Assembly: GCA_021789095.1 (NCBI GenBank)
Contig: JAJYJX010000024.1
Span: forward strand, 1-18,800
DNA: 18,800 bases
Direction of reading: 5' to 3'
DNA from: a bacterium
Lineage (GTDB): Bacteria; JAMCPX01
The position numbers were made by a program, and so were the translations under genes. Under the pieces are notes generated by a model. The model was not told the origin of the DNA and did not search any database. It worked only from the letters and a program-made list of their open reading frames with translations. Within the stretch, counting starts at the first letter, position 1. Every line of letters begins with the position of its first letter. Below are positions 5,200 through 11,212 of this stretch, piece after piece.

Positions 5200-5285
5200 A
5201 CCCCGTTAGAAGTCTGCATAGCATTTATATCAAGTTACCCTTAGGAAGATACGTCCTATGGTATATAATGGACTTCTAACGGGGT
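5200..5285. repeat. CCCCGTTAGAA inverted-repeat element, copy 1 (86 bp)
   Basis: A perfect 15-bp terminal inverted repeat: ACCCCGTTAGAAGTC (5200-5214) and GACTTCTAACGGGGT (5271-5285). The interior holds a smaller imperfect hairpin (CCTTAGGA against TCCTATGG). No T tract follows on either strand and no flanking target duplication is obvious. Copy 2 is at 13556-13656. Both copies stand directly upstream of a TTGACA. Confidence 0.75.
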
Positions 5286-5295
5286 GAAAAAATAC

Positions 5296-5323
5296 TTGAC
5301 AGGTTTTTTTATGCATGTATACT
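5296..5323 (+). promoter_or_regulatory. Strong sigma70-type promoter for the peptide/exported-protein cassette
   Basis: TTGACA (5296-5301), a 16-base spacer, then TATACT (5318-5323). The predicted start near 5330 is followed at once by the AAAGGGG ribosome binding site (5331-5337), so the 5' leader would be only about 14 bases. It lies 10 bases after the inverted-repeat element. Confidence 0.7.
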
Positions 5324-5343
5324 GATACAAAAAGGGGCTCAAT

Positions 5344-5538
5344 ATGTCCGAAAAAAGGCAAAACAAAATAACTGTCACGTCTGAAAAATCAGATACCAGT
5401 GCTGTTGCTTGTTCTAATCGGGAGGGAAAAAAGACATTTATTGAACCTGAGCTCAGAGAATATCCTTCTCTTAAAGAAGTAACACTGTTGACTATGTCGG
5501 GCGTTTCCGGCGCAACATTTTTTAAAACATTTAAGTAA
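5344..5538 (+). CDS. 64-residue peptide with lasso/RRE-type leader motif (putative RiPP-like precursor)
   Basis: A small hydrophilic protein preceded by AAAGGGG 6 bases before its ATG and by a good promoter. Residues 32-47 (FIEPELREYPSLKEVT) match the pattern aromatic-xx-P-x-L-xx-Tyr-(G)-x-L-xx-hydrophobic-T, which is the B1/RRE recognition signature of lasso peptide leaders, with Pro41 in place of the usual glycine. The remaining tail (LLTMSGVSGATFFKTFK) would be the core. It has no Asp or Glu and no Cys; the only cysteine is Cys23, upstream of the motif. A lasso macrolactam or a lanthionine ring therefore cannot form in the usual way. No B, C or other maturation gene is in the window. Proteins with this leader signature are often seen as orphan short ORFs in delta-type proteobacteria. 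The coding call rests on promoter, RBS and motif; a mature modified product is speculative. Confidence 0.72.
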   Translation: MSEKRQNKITVTSEKSDTSAVACSNREGKKTFIEPELREYPSLKEVTLLTMSGVSGATFFKTFK

Positions 5539-5545
5539 TTTAATG

Positions 5546-5572
5546 AAGTCACGCTGTGGCGTGGCTTTATTT
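5546..5572 (+). terminator. Hairpin between peptide and exported-protein genes, possible attenuator
   Basis: AAGTCACGC (5546-5554) pairs with GCGTGGCTT (5559-5567) over 9 bp with one G-U pair and a 4-base loop, followed by a short T-rich tail (TATTTGT). It resembles a weak intrinsic terminator and lies 8 bases after the peptide stop codon. It could lower transcription into the large downstream gene or stabilise the peptide mRNA. Confidence 0.5.
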
Positions 5573-5634
5573 GTAGATAGATGAATGCAAAAAATACAAA
5601 GACAGTGAAAAAAAATGCAAGAAAGGAGGAAAAT

Positions 5635-8496
5635 ATGAGTACAGCACGTAAACAAACAAGTCTTTTATCTATAATAATGAGGTATATCCTATTACCATTG
5701 ACAGTCTTCAGTTTTGCCATTCTGCTTTCACGCTGCGGTCAGCAGGGTCCGTCGCCGGCACCGCCTTATAAAGGTCCTTCGCTGGTAAGCGTTTATCAGG
5801 TTAACTTCGACAAATCGCTGAATAAATTAACCTGGGAGAACATGACACCGCCCCAAGTAACACCTGCAAACGGCGGCGCAGGTTACACAGTTTCTATCGT
5901 TGGTGTTGCGCCGGCTACCTACAGCGCAGGGATAATCAGCCAGTCTGTGCAAATTACATATGTTAATCCGCCTCCCGCTGGCTTTCCAATCACGTTAACA
6001 GGTGTTGTTGCCGTGGTTGACAATGCTCCAACAGGCAAGTCAACAACAACGGTTAACAATCCTGATTATGGCAACGGCTACCGTGCAGACAATCCAACAA
6101 AGGGACCATGGACATGGTGGTTCAAAGGCTCGGGAACAAATGCTGACGCAACGGCAAACTACGGTATTACATCAGGCGGTTCATCCGTTGCAAAGACAAT
6201 TGCATTCAATGCAACAGCCAGTTTTTCTGCAACCCTTTACATCTATGCATTCTGTCCTTCGGGCGTTGTCGTTGACAGGCTGAACAGCAATGCAGCAGTA
6301 GCCAACGCGTTTGTCATGCTTGGCAACAGCCCCGGCGATTCAAACTACTGGGCAGAAAACAGCCAGCCAATCACTACTATTGTAAATTACGTCCCTGCAA
6401 CAGATTCACAGGGATACTGGGCAATGCCGATCACAACGGTTATTGGCAATTACATGACCATTACAATAGGCGCTATAGGCAGCGGAACCCCGGTCAATCC
6501 GCAGTATGACAACGCAACACTCTGGGCAACAGGCTTCTCCAATGTCGTGGGCCCGATACGGGCAAGGATCGTACGTTCAGGTTATGTTGCTGTTGGAGAC
6601 ACAGACGGGACCCACAGTTCGTTAAGTACAGTGACGGGCATTTCTCCCGGAACTTGCACCAATAACCTGCTTATGCCAGCCGCACTTGCAACACAGGCCA
6701 TTGGTTATGAGGAGGTTGCAAACATCAATATATCAACGCTTACAGGACCATATTTCGGCAAAAACCTTTTTGTAGGCACAGGCTGCGGACAGACAGATGC
6801 AAACCAGTGGAACGGCATGCCTTCAAACCTGCTTGTACCCGCTATGAATGCGAATAATATGACGCTCTATACAGCGCCGAATGCAACCACCACCGTTATG
6901 GCACCAAGGACATTGAACGCCGTCGGCACCGGCAGGATCTTTTTTGTACCTGCACCTGCAAATGCGACAAACTTTGCGTTCGGAGGCAGTATGGGAGTGA
7001 TTAACTACACCTGGTTCTTAGGGCTCGGATCAGGACAGGCTATGTGGAATAACCCCATGCCTCTGACCAATGTGCTGAGGAACGTAAGTTTTTCAAACAT
7101 GGGTATTGACATGGCTATATCTACAAATACAGCCCCTGGTACAGCAGTCGGGTTTACAACCACAGGCTCAGGGACAAATTATTTAGGTACAACATTGAGT
7201 TCCAAGAGCGTAGCTCTTAATAACCTTGGTACAATCTGGGGACCGACAATGCCAACCACCCAGAACTATGATATTGTAGGATCTATTGGTGTTGATCTTG
7301 GTGCAACCCAGCCCGCGGACTTGAGGATAGTAATACCTGCGTTAACGCTTGCTGATACGTCAAAAACAGCAATGACCATATCAATGCCTGCTGCCATACC
7401 TTCTGGCGCAACACTTGTTCCAACAGCCATGATCCTGGCAGTTGATGCGCTCAATGAAGGTAACAATATTCAGTATACACCGAACACAGGCACTTCACCG
7501 CTTGCGAATTTCTCTGCAACTGTGGTTGTGTCGGACAGGACGGGCTATTCAGTAGCCAGTTTCCCTGCATCAATAACCTTTAGCAACTGGTATAAGTTTA
7601 TAGAGCTTAAGTGGCCGACCATCAATGCCAATGATCAAACACTGCAATGGACATCTGCTGTAAATGCAGGGGTAACAGGGGAGTTACCACCGTCCATAGG
7701 GTATATGCTTGTTACCTACGCTGTTCCGTATAATGAGGCTGTGACAGGATATCTGAGTAACGGTGTACAGATTGCAACACCCACGATCTACAGGCCTGCA
7801 TACGCATGGGAGATACTGTTCAATCCTAATGCTGTATGTTTTACCTGTCCCACTACCAGTTTGACCATACCTACACTGCCGCTGACCTCTGGAGGAGAAC
7901 TGCTTACACAGGGTACTTATGGAAGGTTCCACACGGTGAACATACTGCAGGGACTTGCGCATACGAGTATAAACGGTCCTGCCTATCAATGGGACACAAA
8001 CAACGATATGGCAGCGGTTTCAAACTATCTGATCACCAATATGGACAACTTCTCGAGAATAGGCGTACCGATTGGAGCAGGATGGATTATAACGCCGGCA
8101 ACAGGTGCCAATTTGGGGGCTGTGGGTACAACACCAGCCACGGCTTATATAGATGCATACAACTGGAAGATCGTTTCAGCGAGCAGCGGGACAGACCTCA
8201 GAGGATGCTGGTGGGTGAATTCTGTATATCTTAATTGCACCGGTGGAACCTGCGGAGCTTCAACGTATTATAACTGGTCGAGTTGTGCCAGTGGTACAAC
8301 TGCGTGCTCAAGCATGCCTGGTGTAACAGTGATTGCAAACCAGTACGCATACCTGCAGTCAACGATCACCCTTACAACCGGCGAGTATAATACCATTACA
8401 TTCACGCCTTACAATACATCGGCAGGTACAAGTACAAATGGTTCTCCAGCATGCCAGCAGGTTGGACCATCACACACAATCAATGTAAAGAACTGA
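5635..8496 (+). CDS. 953-residue Asn/Thr/Gly-rich exported protein of unknown family (lipoprotein-like)
   Basis: I do not recognise this family. The start at 5635 is preferred over an in-frame ATG 18 codons upstream because AAAGGAGGA sits 4 bases before it. Residues 10-32 form a hydrophobic export segment ending LLSRC-GQQG; Cys34 suggests a lipoprotein, but Arg at -1 is atypical of a lipobox. The rest is low in charge and rich in Asn, Thr, Ala, Gly, Ser and aromatic residues, with many short beta-prone runs, as in large extracellular adhesin- or S-layer-like proteins. Cysteines cluster in places: CFTC about residues 730-740, and seven in the C-terminal 120 residues (GCWW, NCTGGTC, SSCASGTTAC, ACQQ). 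Disulfides or metal binding are possible. No catalytic motif, LPxTG, autotransporter barrel or PEP-CTERM tail is visible. It is followed by a strong terminator, and the 64-residue peptide gene lies just upstream, so the two probably form one transcription unit. Confidence 0.88.
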   Translation: MSTARKQTSLLSIIMRYILLPLTVFSFAILLSRCGQQGPSPAPPYKGPSLVSVYQVNFDKSLNKLTWENMTPPQVTPANGGAGYTVSIVGVAPATYSAGIISQSVQITYVNPPPAGFPITLTGVVAVVDNAPTGKSTTTVNNPDYGNGYRADNPTKGPWTWWFKGSGTNADATANYGITSGGSSVAKTIAFNATASFSATLYIYAFCPSGVVVDRLNSNAAVANAFVMLGNSPGDSNYWAENSQPITTIVNYVPATDSQGYWAMPITTVIGNYMTITIGAIGSGTPVNPQYDNATLWATGFSNVVGPIRARIVRSGYVAVGDTDGTHSSLSTVTGISPGTCTNNLLMPAALATQAIGYEEVANINISTLTGPYFGKNLFVGTGCGQTDANQWNGMPSNLLVPAMNANNMTLYTAPNATTTVMAPRTLNAVGTGRIFFVPAPANATNFAFGGSMGVINYTWFLGLGSGQAMWNNPMPLTNVLRNVSFSNMGIDMAISTNTAPGTAVGFTTTGSGTNYLGTTLSSKSVALNNLGTIWGPTMPTTQNYDIVGSIGVDLGATQPADLRIVIPALTLADTSKTAMTISMPAAIPSGATLVPTAMILAVDALNEGNNIQYTPNTGTSPLANFSATVVVSDRTGYSVASFPASITFSNWYKFIELKWPTINANDQTLQWTSAVNAGVTGELPPSIGYMLVTYAVPYNEAVTGYLSNGVQIATPTIYRPAYAWEILFNPNAVCFTCPTTSLTIPTLPLTSGGELLTQGTYGRFHTVNILQGLAHTSINGPAYQWDTNNDMAAVSNYLITNMDNFSRIGVPIGAGWIITPATGANLGAVGTTPATAYIDAYNWKIVSASSGTDLRGCWWVNSVYLNCTGGTCGASTYYNWSSCASGTTACSSMPGVTVIANQYAYLQSTITLTTGEYNTITFTPYNTSAGTSTNGSPACQQVGPSHTINVKN

Positions 8497-8698: not shown

Positions 8699-11212
8699 TT
8701 AATTTTGAGTTTTGAATCCGCCCTGGTTATACTGCTTCAGCATTTGCATAAGCTGTGCGTTCCCCGGTACAGCTTCCATGCCCTTTTTCAGGACCTCCAA
8801 AGCCTGCGCATCCATGTCCTGGCTTTTGTAGATCAATGCCATCTGCGCATAGCCCTGCTCATATTTCGGGTTGAGCACAACCGCCATCTTGAACGCCTCT
8901 ATCGCATTGTACCAGTCATTGTCCTGGTTATAATAAGCACCGAGTATGGCATACAGCGCGTAGTCATAGGGAAGATTGTAGGCCGCCTGCTTCATGACCT
9001 GTATTGCAGTATCAAGCCTGTTTCCGGATGCATAAATACCTGCAAGCAATGTATACGCCTGTTTGTATTTTTTGTCTGTCTGAATAACATGCTCAAGGTC
9101 GGCAACTGCGGAAGCCGTATTGTCGGTCTGGATTTTAAGCATGGCAGTGTAAAACAGCATGTCAGGACTTGTTATATGCAGGGATTCAAGCTGGGTTAAA
9201 GCGTTTTTCTTGCTTGGTGTTATGGAGATGAACAGGGGAATATATCTGTTCAGTTGCCCATTATCGGATACCATGAGCCGTTTTAGTATCCCTTCAGCAA
9301 CCGTGATATCATCGCCTGTATCGCCTTGTACATTGACACGTTTAATCAGCTCGTTTGCAAGCACCCATTCGCCGTCGGGCAGTGTCTTTGCTGTTTGTTG
9401 AATCTTTTCCATAGCAACATTATAAGCAATAAGCATGGCAATGGCGTTCCATGTATAAGCACCATAGATTTCACCGGCTTTTTTATAGTAAGATATTGCA
9501 TCATGTTCATTGCCTGTCTCAAGCTCCATGTCTGCCATTCTTAAACACAAAGATGCATTCGTTGGGTCGAGCACCAGGGATTGTTTTGTGTATAAAATGG
9601 CATTGTTCATGTCCCCTTTGAACTGATAAAGCCCGCCTATGTCCTCGGGATAATACGGGTTCCACGGACACAGCCTGTATGCTTGTTTGAACTGCACGAT
9701 AGCTTTATCAAGAGTGCCGGGTTCGCCAGATTGGACAAACTGCCTGAACAATGCCCTGCCTGATTCATAGTGGACAAGGTCGGTATTGATAAACTGCTGT
9801 GCGCGTGTGAGCGTTTCAACGGCGGCTCTGGCATGGTTTTGCCTGAGAAAGTCACTGCCTTTGTTGTACATGTACTCACCATAAATAGCCCTTGAACATA
9901 CAACAGTGACGCCTGTAAACAAAACGACTGCTGCGGCTCCTGCAAGTACGCGCTGCGTGTTTGAAAGCCTTTTTACATAATCAGGAGGCAGGTCATTTTG
10001 ATTTACAGGTCCGTTTGACTTTAAAACAGAGGCCGTGCCTGCCATCAGTATGATTGCGCAAATGGCATTTGAAGGGACCAGGATGCCGAAGTCCACAAAG
10101 TTGTGGAATATAAGATACAGTGTTGACGTCAATCCTGCCCAGAGCACTGCCTTTATAAAATCGGACGAAGCATGCTTGATGCCGTTGACCATGCTCAATA
10201 TCCATGACAGGAGTATCCATAGAAAAATGCCCAATCCTATAATCCCGGCATCATCCGCGATTTCTATGAACATGTTGTGCGCATGATTAACGAGATACAG
10301 TATGTCCGCAGGCCTGAACCTGTGAAATGCATCTTCATAGGTGCCTATGCCCCAGCCTGTAACAAAAGAACCGGGATCAAAAACAAGCATCCTTACGGAG
10401 CCCAGCCATATACCCAGCCTTTGCGATGCGCTTAAGATGAACAGGCTGCTGAAAAGCCTTTTCTGGAAAGGATACATGTTCATAATGAAAATACCTGCGA
10501 GTACACATGCAGCCAGCAGCACAGATGCGGTTTTCCTGCTGAAAAGTCCGAGCCATGCTGACAGGACAAGCATAATTGCTGTCGCAAGCACAAAAGAGAT
10601 GTAACCGCCCCTTGACACGGAGAACAAAAAGCCCGCGAGTATGGCGAATAATGCAATAAACCATGCAGCCCTGCTTTTTACGTCCTGATGTTTATAAACG
10701 CCCAGTGCAATGGCATAGGGCATGAGCATGCCCGCAAGCATTGCAAGGTGATTGTTGTTTACCAGCCAGCCCGAGAAAGAGTTTGTCCCTGCCTTGAAAT
10801 GGACAAGCATTTTTACGATGTAAGCAATCAACAGCAGGCTGTTTGTATAGAGGACGGATTTTATCAGGTCAAGGCTGTCACTCCGTCCGCCGAAACCCGC
10901 GTACAGATAAACCAGGAACAGGGCAATTAACGAGAGTACGAAAAGGGGCTCGAAAATGTAGCGCTGGTTCGATGGCCATAAAATGATTACACGGACTATG
11001 ACGTAGACGGACAGGAAGAGCAACGGCAGGTATAAACGGGATCTGGGCAGGCTGATCATGCCGCTGCGGATCCATGAAAACACGATGAGTGTCAGCATCA
11101 GGCACGCAAAAATGATGATAAAGAGTTTATCGATCAGGAAAGGCGAGCCGTAATGCAAAGATGTGGCGAGAACAAGCAGTGCGCTGAAAAATATAATTAT
11201 CTTTTTTGTCAT
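8699..11212 (-). CDS. O-antigen ligase family membrane protein with C-terminal TPR domain
   Basis: An 837-residue protein. Residues 1 to about 430 contain around a dozen hydrophobic helices. The Wzy_C/O-antigen-ligase core is recognisable: a GWGIGTYEDAFHRFRP loop followed by NHAHN at residues 309-313 in LVNHAHNMFIEIADDAG. An earlier GWLVNNNHLAMLAG segment is also typical. From about residue 440 to the end there are several tetratricopeptide repeats, for example around NAILYTKQSLVLDPTNA and NAIEAFKMAVVLNPKYEQGY. Family members transfer undecaprenyl-linked glycan to lipid A core (WaaL), polymerise repeat units (Wzy) or glycosylate proteins (PglL/PilO type). The TPR tail would face the periplasm and may bind a partner. 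Which of the three reactions applies cannot be told. It is the only complete minus-strand gene, diverges from dksA by 46 bases, and has only a weak GAGAA ribosome site. Confidence 0.9.
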   Translation of the reverse strand: MTKKIIIFFSALLVLATSLHYGSPFLIDKLFIIIFACLMLTLIVFSWIRSGMISLPRSRLYLPLLFLSVYVIVRVIILWPSNQRYIFEPLFVLSLIALFLVYLYAGFGGRSDSLDLIKSVLYTNSLLLIAYIVKMLVHFKAGTNSFSGWLVNNNHLAMLAGMLMPYAIALGVYKHQDVKSRAAWFIALFAILAGFLFSVSRGGYISFVLATAIMLVLSAWLGLFSRKTASVLLAACVLAGIFIMNMYPFQKRLFSSLFILSASQRLGIWLGSVRMLVFDPGSFVTGWGIGTYEDAFHRFRPADILYLVNHAHNMFIEIADDAGIIGLGIFLWILLSWILSMVNGIKHASSDFIKAVLWAGLTSTLYLIFHNFVDFGILVPSNAICAIILMAGTASVLKSNGPVNQNDLPPDYVKRLSNTQRVLAGAAAVVLFTGVTVVCSRAIYGEYMYNKGSDFLRQNHARAAVETLTRAQQFINTDLVHYESGRALFRQFVQSGEPGTLDKAIVQFKQAYRLCPWNPYYPEDIGGLYQFKGDMNNAILYTKQSLVLDPTNASLCLRMADMELETGNEHDAISYYKKAGEIYGAYTWNAIAMLIAYNVAMEKIQQTAKTLPDGEWVLANELIKRVNVQGDTGDDITVAEGILKRLMVSDNGQLNRYIPLFISITPSKKNALTQLESLHITSPDMLFYTAMLKIQTDNTASAVADLEHVIQTDKKYKQAYTLLAGIYASGNRLDTAIQVMKQAAYNLPYDYALYAILGAYYNQDNDWYNAIEAFKMAVVLNPKYEQGYAQMALIYKSQDMDAQALEVLKKGMEAVPGNAQLMQMLKQYNQGGFKTQN

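Follow-up and report, generated by a model that had tools for sequence, protein, structure and literature searches.

The window analysed here, an 18,800-nucleotide stretch of bacterial DNA, contains a gene for a 64-residue peptide that is probably the precursor of a RiPP made with the front half of lasso biosynthesis, using B1 and B2 proteins encoded at an unlinked site and no cyclase, and giving a product that is probably linear. The gene and its conservation, the presence of B1 and B2, the predicted fold, and the conserved catalytic and contact residues are directly established. An earlier note on this DNA had raised a precursor for a different modification as one possibility, and this is the best reading of the data, although it is unproven.

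The gene (5344-5538, plus strand) translates as MSEKRQNKITVTSEKSDTSAVACSNREGKKTFIEPELREYPSLKEVTLLTMSGVSGATFFKTFK. Searches at the level of family, class and phylum all led to the same nine genomes of the phylum (G000, from which the window derives, to G008), and homologues of the peptide are present in five of them (G000, G001, G002, G006 and G008). Alignment of the five reveals a conserved half, FIEPELREYPSLTEVTLLTxxGxSGxTFFKTFK, preceded by a polar and variable N-terminal extension. Over 24 conserved codons the values of pN (0.08-0.25) are well below those of pS (0.61-1.10) in all ten pairs of homologues, which is strong evidence of selection on the protein; judged by this substitution pattern, the open reading frame is real and protein-coding, with strong purifying selection on its conserved half. 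The earlier note had listed a lack of homologues keeping the leader motif and a lack of coding constraint as results that would count against its proposal; neither was found, as the motif is kept in all five homologues and the codons are constrained.

Scans of the peptide with Pfam, NCBIfam and PADLOC assign it to no family, a sequence search of the PDB gives no match, and none was found in viral contigs. A search of public genome contigs returned three loci, on MAG contigs apparently identical with those in G001, G002 and G008. No peptide was found in G003, G004 and G005, the assemblies of which are fragmented and 80-87% complete, and extra weak matches in G000, G001, G004 and G005 looked like chance and were rejected. 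An antisense reading frame (5256-5720) was also rejected, since in G002 it does not stay open along its length and the plus-strand change is mainly synonymous.

Positions of the peptide gene, its parts and its flanking features in the window.
Feature	Position	Strand	Evidence
Inverted repeat with perfect arms of 15 nt, one copy of an element scattered through this genome and related ones	5200-5285		Related arms in seven of nine genomes
Sigma-70-like promoter, TTGACA-16-TATACT	5296-5323	+	11/12 bases match
Putative ribosome-binding site, AAGGGG, 6 nt before ATG	5332-5337	+	Sequence
Probable precursor peptide gene, 64 aa	5344-5538	+	Translation, homologues, alignment, pN/pS
N-terminal extension, polar and variable, residues 1-31	5344-5436	+	Alignment
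Conserved leader, residues 32-48: F32 (-17), P35 (-14), L37 (-12), T47 (-2)	5437-5487	+	Alignment, lasso spacing
Predicted core, L49-K64, no acidic residue	5488-5535	+	Alignment; boundaries predicted
Terminator-like hairpin ending the peptide unit	5542-5571	+	-16.8 kcal/mol, z -5.1
Adjoining lipoprotein gene, member of an expanded family	5635-8496	+	Family members beside the peptide in four genomes

The good promoter claimed from the sequence is borne out, as it is near consensus and the same arrangement recurs 5' of the G002 homologue, and in part in G006, where TTGACA is followed by a weaker second box. A hairpin similar to that in the window, which is absent from the list of a simple terminator scan, lies 3' of the G002 gene (-16.3 kcal/mol, z -3.75). 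Promoter and hairpin together suggest that the peptide gene probably forms a short transcript of its own, 5' of the adjoining lipoprotein gene. The lipoprotein family has up to six copies per genome and was not found in G007 and G004; the peptide adjoins a member in G000, G001, G002 and G008, and beside the other lipoprotein copies that were read there is no convincing peptide precursor. The proteins of this family (5635-8496 and L089-L103) have a common N-terminal domain, and some have NHL, TIG or other C-terminal repeats. The leftwards-transcribed gene at 8699-11212 encodes a fusion of an O-antigen-ligase (Wzy_C) domain with a long stretch of TPR repeats. The inverted repeat to the left of the promoter has arms ACCCCGTTAGAAGTC/GACTTCTAACGGGGT and a structured middle, with related arms in seven of the nine genomes, and is a dispersed palindromic element, REP- or MITE-like, probably unrelated to the peptide.

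Residues 32-47 (FIEPELREYPSLKEVT) have the leader pattern previously described for this peptide, with Pro41 at a position where Gly is usual. Lasso precursors contain YxxPxL at -17 to -12 and usually Thr at -2 (PMC10368454); F32, P35, L37 and T47, invariant in all five homologues, occupy the lasso-leader positions -17, -14, -12 and -2, with Phe replacing Tyr. Discrete lasso RREs are known to favour Tyr or Trp at -17, not Phe (PMC13381572). The column pattern [FYW]xxPx[LIVM]x9T arose in 20 of 200,000 shuffles of the alignment columns. The motif alone is not rare, occurring in genomic DNA about four times per genome (38 matches listed, the five family genes among them), at or below a reversed-pattern control and thus at chance level, and the leader evidence rests on conservation. 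With this invariant spacing, and with cognate-looking B1 and B2 genes in the genome, the designation as a lasso-type leader is well supported.

The remaining 17 residues (48-64) contain no Asp, Glu or Cys, and acidic residues are absent after the leader in every homologue, including core positions 7-9 at which a lasso ring needs Asp or Glu. Since the core begins with Leu and contains no acid, a normal lasso macrolactam is excluded, and the absence of a cyclase from the B1/B2 cassette (below) agrees with the initial view that this core cannot form a normal lasso. Every homologue has Ser or Thr at residues 50 and 55, and the tail FFKTF is kept in four of the five; the G001 core has diverged and ends GASGGSVY, without FFKTFK.

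The peptide had been described as an orphan, and this is correct locally in that no maturation gene adjoins it; at the genome level it is not, as lasso-type B1, B2 or both are present in eight of the nine genomes, and the RRE and transglutaminase-like genes that the earlier note proposed to look for were both found. Seven genomes carry one PqqD-type RRE gene each at the Pfam cut-off, and seven have a Transglut_core3 (B2-type) gene above cut-off. When complete, the cassette contains in order a large lipoprotein, B1, a PD40-propeller lipoprotein, B2 and a PF14907 nucleotidyltransferase. In G000 it is split by a contig break within the PD40 gene, with overlapping sequence at both ends; no B1 is seen in G008, where the contig ends within the cassette, and the contig of G004 ends before B2. 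Wherever both were read the peptide gene is neither in nor near the cassette, and no convincing leader-bearing short open reading frame that could be a local precursor was found inside or around the B1/B2 cassettes.

Searches of the PDB by sequence match the PqqD-type protein to lasso B1 proteins and nothing else, and its AlphaFold model (pLDDT 90) resembles TbiB1 and TfuB1 with query-length TM scores of 0.79-0.89 (0.89 for TbiB1); it falls below the curated NCBIfam lasso PqqD cut-off (48.4 vs 70 bits). A B1 of the kind that lasso systems have, as a discrete RRE or as a B1-B2 fusion, is present. B2 scores 34.3 bits, above the NCBIfam lasso B2 cut-off of 33, and six intact copies all keep Cys82, His119 and the Asp residues after them, corresponding to the Cys-His-Asp of the transglutaminase-like leader peptidases. 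Its AlphaFold model is weak (pLDDT 73) and gives only low-scoring transglutaminase-fold matches, and a plasmid search with B2 found none. In the decayed part of the G006 cassette (L025 5600-7540), beside an intact B1, B2 is broken, with two internal stops and the catalytic Cys changed to Arg, the nucleotidyltransferase is split over several frames and the PD40 gene is truncated; the peptide in this genome is intact, which is the chief evidence against a precursor trimmed by B1/B2. This represents either recent decay or a peptide function needing B1 alone or neither. B1 is also present in G003, G004 and G005 (with B2 in G003 and G005), in which the peptide was not found. G007 is without peptide, B1 and lasso-type B2, and in G008, of the same genus, both peptide and B2 are present, nine genomes being too few for a test of co-occurrence.

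The contacts between B1 and the leader can be compared with those of LppB, in which Asn33 fixes a kink at the leader Pro, its loss nearly abolishing binding, and Asp70 bonds the hydroxyl of the leader Tyr (Popov et al., PMC13381572). With the LppB positions placed through the PbaB1 equivalents given in that paper (Gly42 and Gln79), Asn33 aligns with B1 N34 and Asp70 with B1 S71, both of which are invariant among the RREs of the phylum; TbiB1 and TfuB1 have Asp at the position of S71. In this comparison, which was chosen after the key residues were known and includes three outside RREs, a leader Phe without a hydroxyl and an RRE Ser would fit a matched receptor and ligand, and the pairing is suggestive and not proof because it is a single lineage-wide change.

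No lasso macrolactam cyclase (C) is encoded in the cassette, and none of the homologues read elsewhere in the genomes fits one. Asparagine-synthetase homologues are present in all nine genomes, and one lies on the G000 contig that carries B2 and the nucleotidyltransferase; it scores 214 bits, as against a lasso-cyclase cut-off of 525, its best match is an XrtA/EPS amidotransferase, and no counterpart adjoins the cassette in the other genomes. The other long homologues that were read, judged by neighbourhood only, have ElyC-like, aminotransferase or glycosyltransferase genes around them. Cyclisation of the core in an unusual manner by one of these enzymes, such as a head-to-tail closure at the C-terminal carboxylate, would draw on their presence in every genome and on the G000 contig; the low score, the amidotransferase match, the lack of such a neighbour in the other genomes and these neighbourhoods make it very improbable.

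As to tailoring, the nucleotidyltransferase of pseudomycoidin adds a hexose to the phosphorylated peptide (PMC8498205); we take it to be of the PF14907 kind. An unlinked operon in G000, G001, G002, G005 and G006 encodes an HprK_rel_B-like kinase, a radical SAM protein and an outer-membrane-like protein, in some cases with a sugar nucleotidyltransferase; it was not detected in the peptide-bearing G008. At L121 1184-4940, L122 3679-7666 and L125 1475-5281 it contains a MurU-like nucleotidyltransferase, the kinase with a GMxMSGKT P-loop, a radical SAM protein closest to ScmF and the outer-membrane-like protein, and we regard it as a candidate separate modification system. SPASM radical SAM genes are not specific, because they are also found in G007, and were rejected as pathway partners.

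We propose that the unlinked B1, a discrete RRE, would bind the leader at FxxPxL and deliver the peptide to B2, a cysteine peptidase. From lasso spacing the cut is predicted after residue 48, one residue past T47 and between L48 and L49, and would release the linear 16-residue core LTMSGVSGATFFKTFK. The PF14907 nucleotidyltransferase could act on the conserved Ser/Thr residues of this core, perhaps together with an HprK-like kinase from another locus. Whether these elements amount to a new class of linear RiPP outside the Bacillota, in which a cyclase-less lasso B1/B2 pair acts on a detached precursor, Tyr to Phe and Asp to Ser have co-adapted, and the nucleotidyltransferase modifies core Ser/Thr, is a more tentative matter, and we put it forward as a possibility somewhat short of an even case.

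The alternative that deserves most weight is that this is a conserved small protein unrelated to B1/B2, for instance a signalling, surface or regulatory peptide, the middle of which resembles an RRE leader by chance. The peptide is not linked to the cassette, is retained in G006 despite the broken B2 and nucleotidyltransferase, adjoins lipoprotein-family members in four of five genomes, and has Phe, not Tyr or Trp, at -17, all of which suit that explanation. We nevertheless consider it unlikely, given the exact and invariant fit at -17/-14/-12/-2, so seldom reproduced by column shuffling, the RRE with matching contact residues in the same genomes, and the joint absence of peptide, B1 and lasso-type B2 from G007. 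It is less probable still that the system is the decaying relict of a real lasso pathway that has lost its cyclase and the core of which has drifted, as the partly pseudogenised G006 cassette, the lack of a fitting cyclase and the patchy presence might indicate: the conserved half of the peptide is under strong purifying selection, with the FFKTF tail in four of five homologues, the B2 catalytic residues are intact in six genomes, and the acid is absent from all homologues, so that it would have been lost long ago even though selection has continued. We favour the cyclase-less RiPP precursor.

RRE-Finder reported that only about 4,000 of nearly 8,000 proteins for which its discrete lasso-RRE model is the best match co-occur with the leader peptidase and the cyclase (PMC7470986), and a B1/B2 cassette that lacks a cyclase and has a recognisable precursor far from it offers one concrete candidate answer to the role of such RREs. 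The detached precursor suggests that cluster-bound mining misses precursors, and the Phe/Ser pair provides a testable rule for leader recognition.

Among known systems, the linear polyphosphorylated peptides (LPPs; Popov et al. 2026, PMC13381572) are similar in having a discrete lasso-type RRE, an aromatic-xxP leader, an NTP transferase, no macrolactam cyclase and a presumed linear product, and the combination of RRE and NTP transferase without a cyclase is found here also. LPPs have an SpI-type leader peptidase, a linked HprK kinase and an MsbA-like transporter and occur mainly in Bacillota, whereas here the peptidase seen in the cassette is B2, and the candidate kinase and the precursor are both encoded at other sites. 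The LPP leader motif YxxPxVLxHQxIxFETxxS is not present, the corresponding sequence being FIEPELREYPSLTEVT, and because of this the peptide falls outside the LPPs as they are defined. The phosphorylated and phosphoglycosylated lasso peptides Bsf (PMC10368454), paeninodin and pseudomycoidin (PMC8498205) likewise use B1 and B2, several with a nucleotidyltransferase, and the Bsf leader has YxxPxL at -17 to -12, most lasso precursors having Thr at -2; in contrast to these, the present cassette lacks cyclase and transporter, and the peptide has no acidic ring residue, Leu at core position 1 and Phe at -17. The kinase/radical SAM operon at its separate site is similar to HprK_rel_B and to ScmF of the SynChlorMet systems (NCBIfam), but scores far below the cut-offs and is unlinked to peptide or B1. 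As two defining features, the cyclase and the core acid, were looked for and are lacking, this is not a lasso peptide; most likely it belongs to a new cyclase-less B1/B2 variant, which would operate in the manner of the part of lasso biosynthesis that recognises and removes the leader, with a logic close to that of the LPPs.
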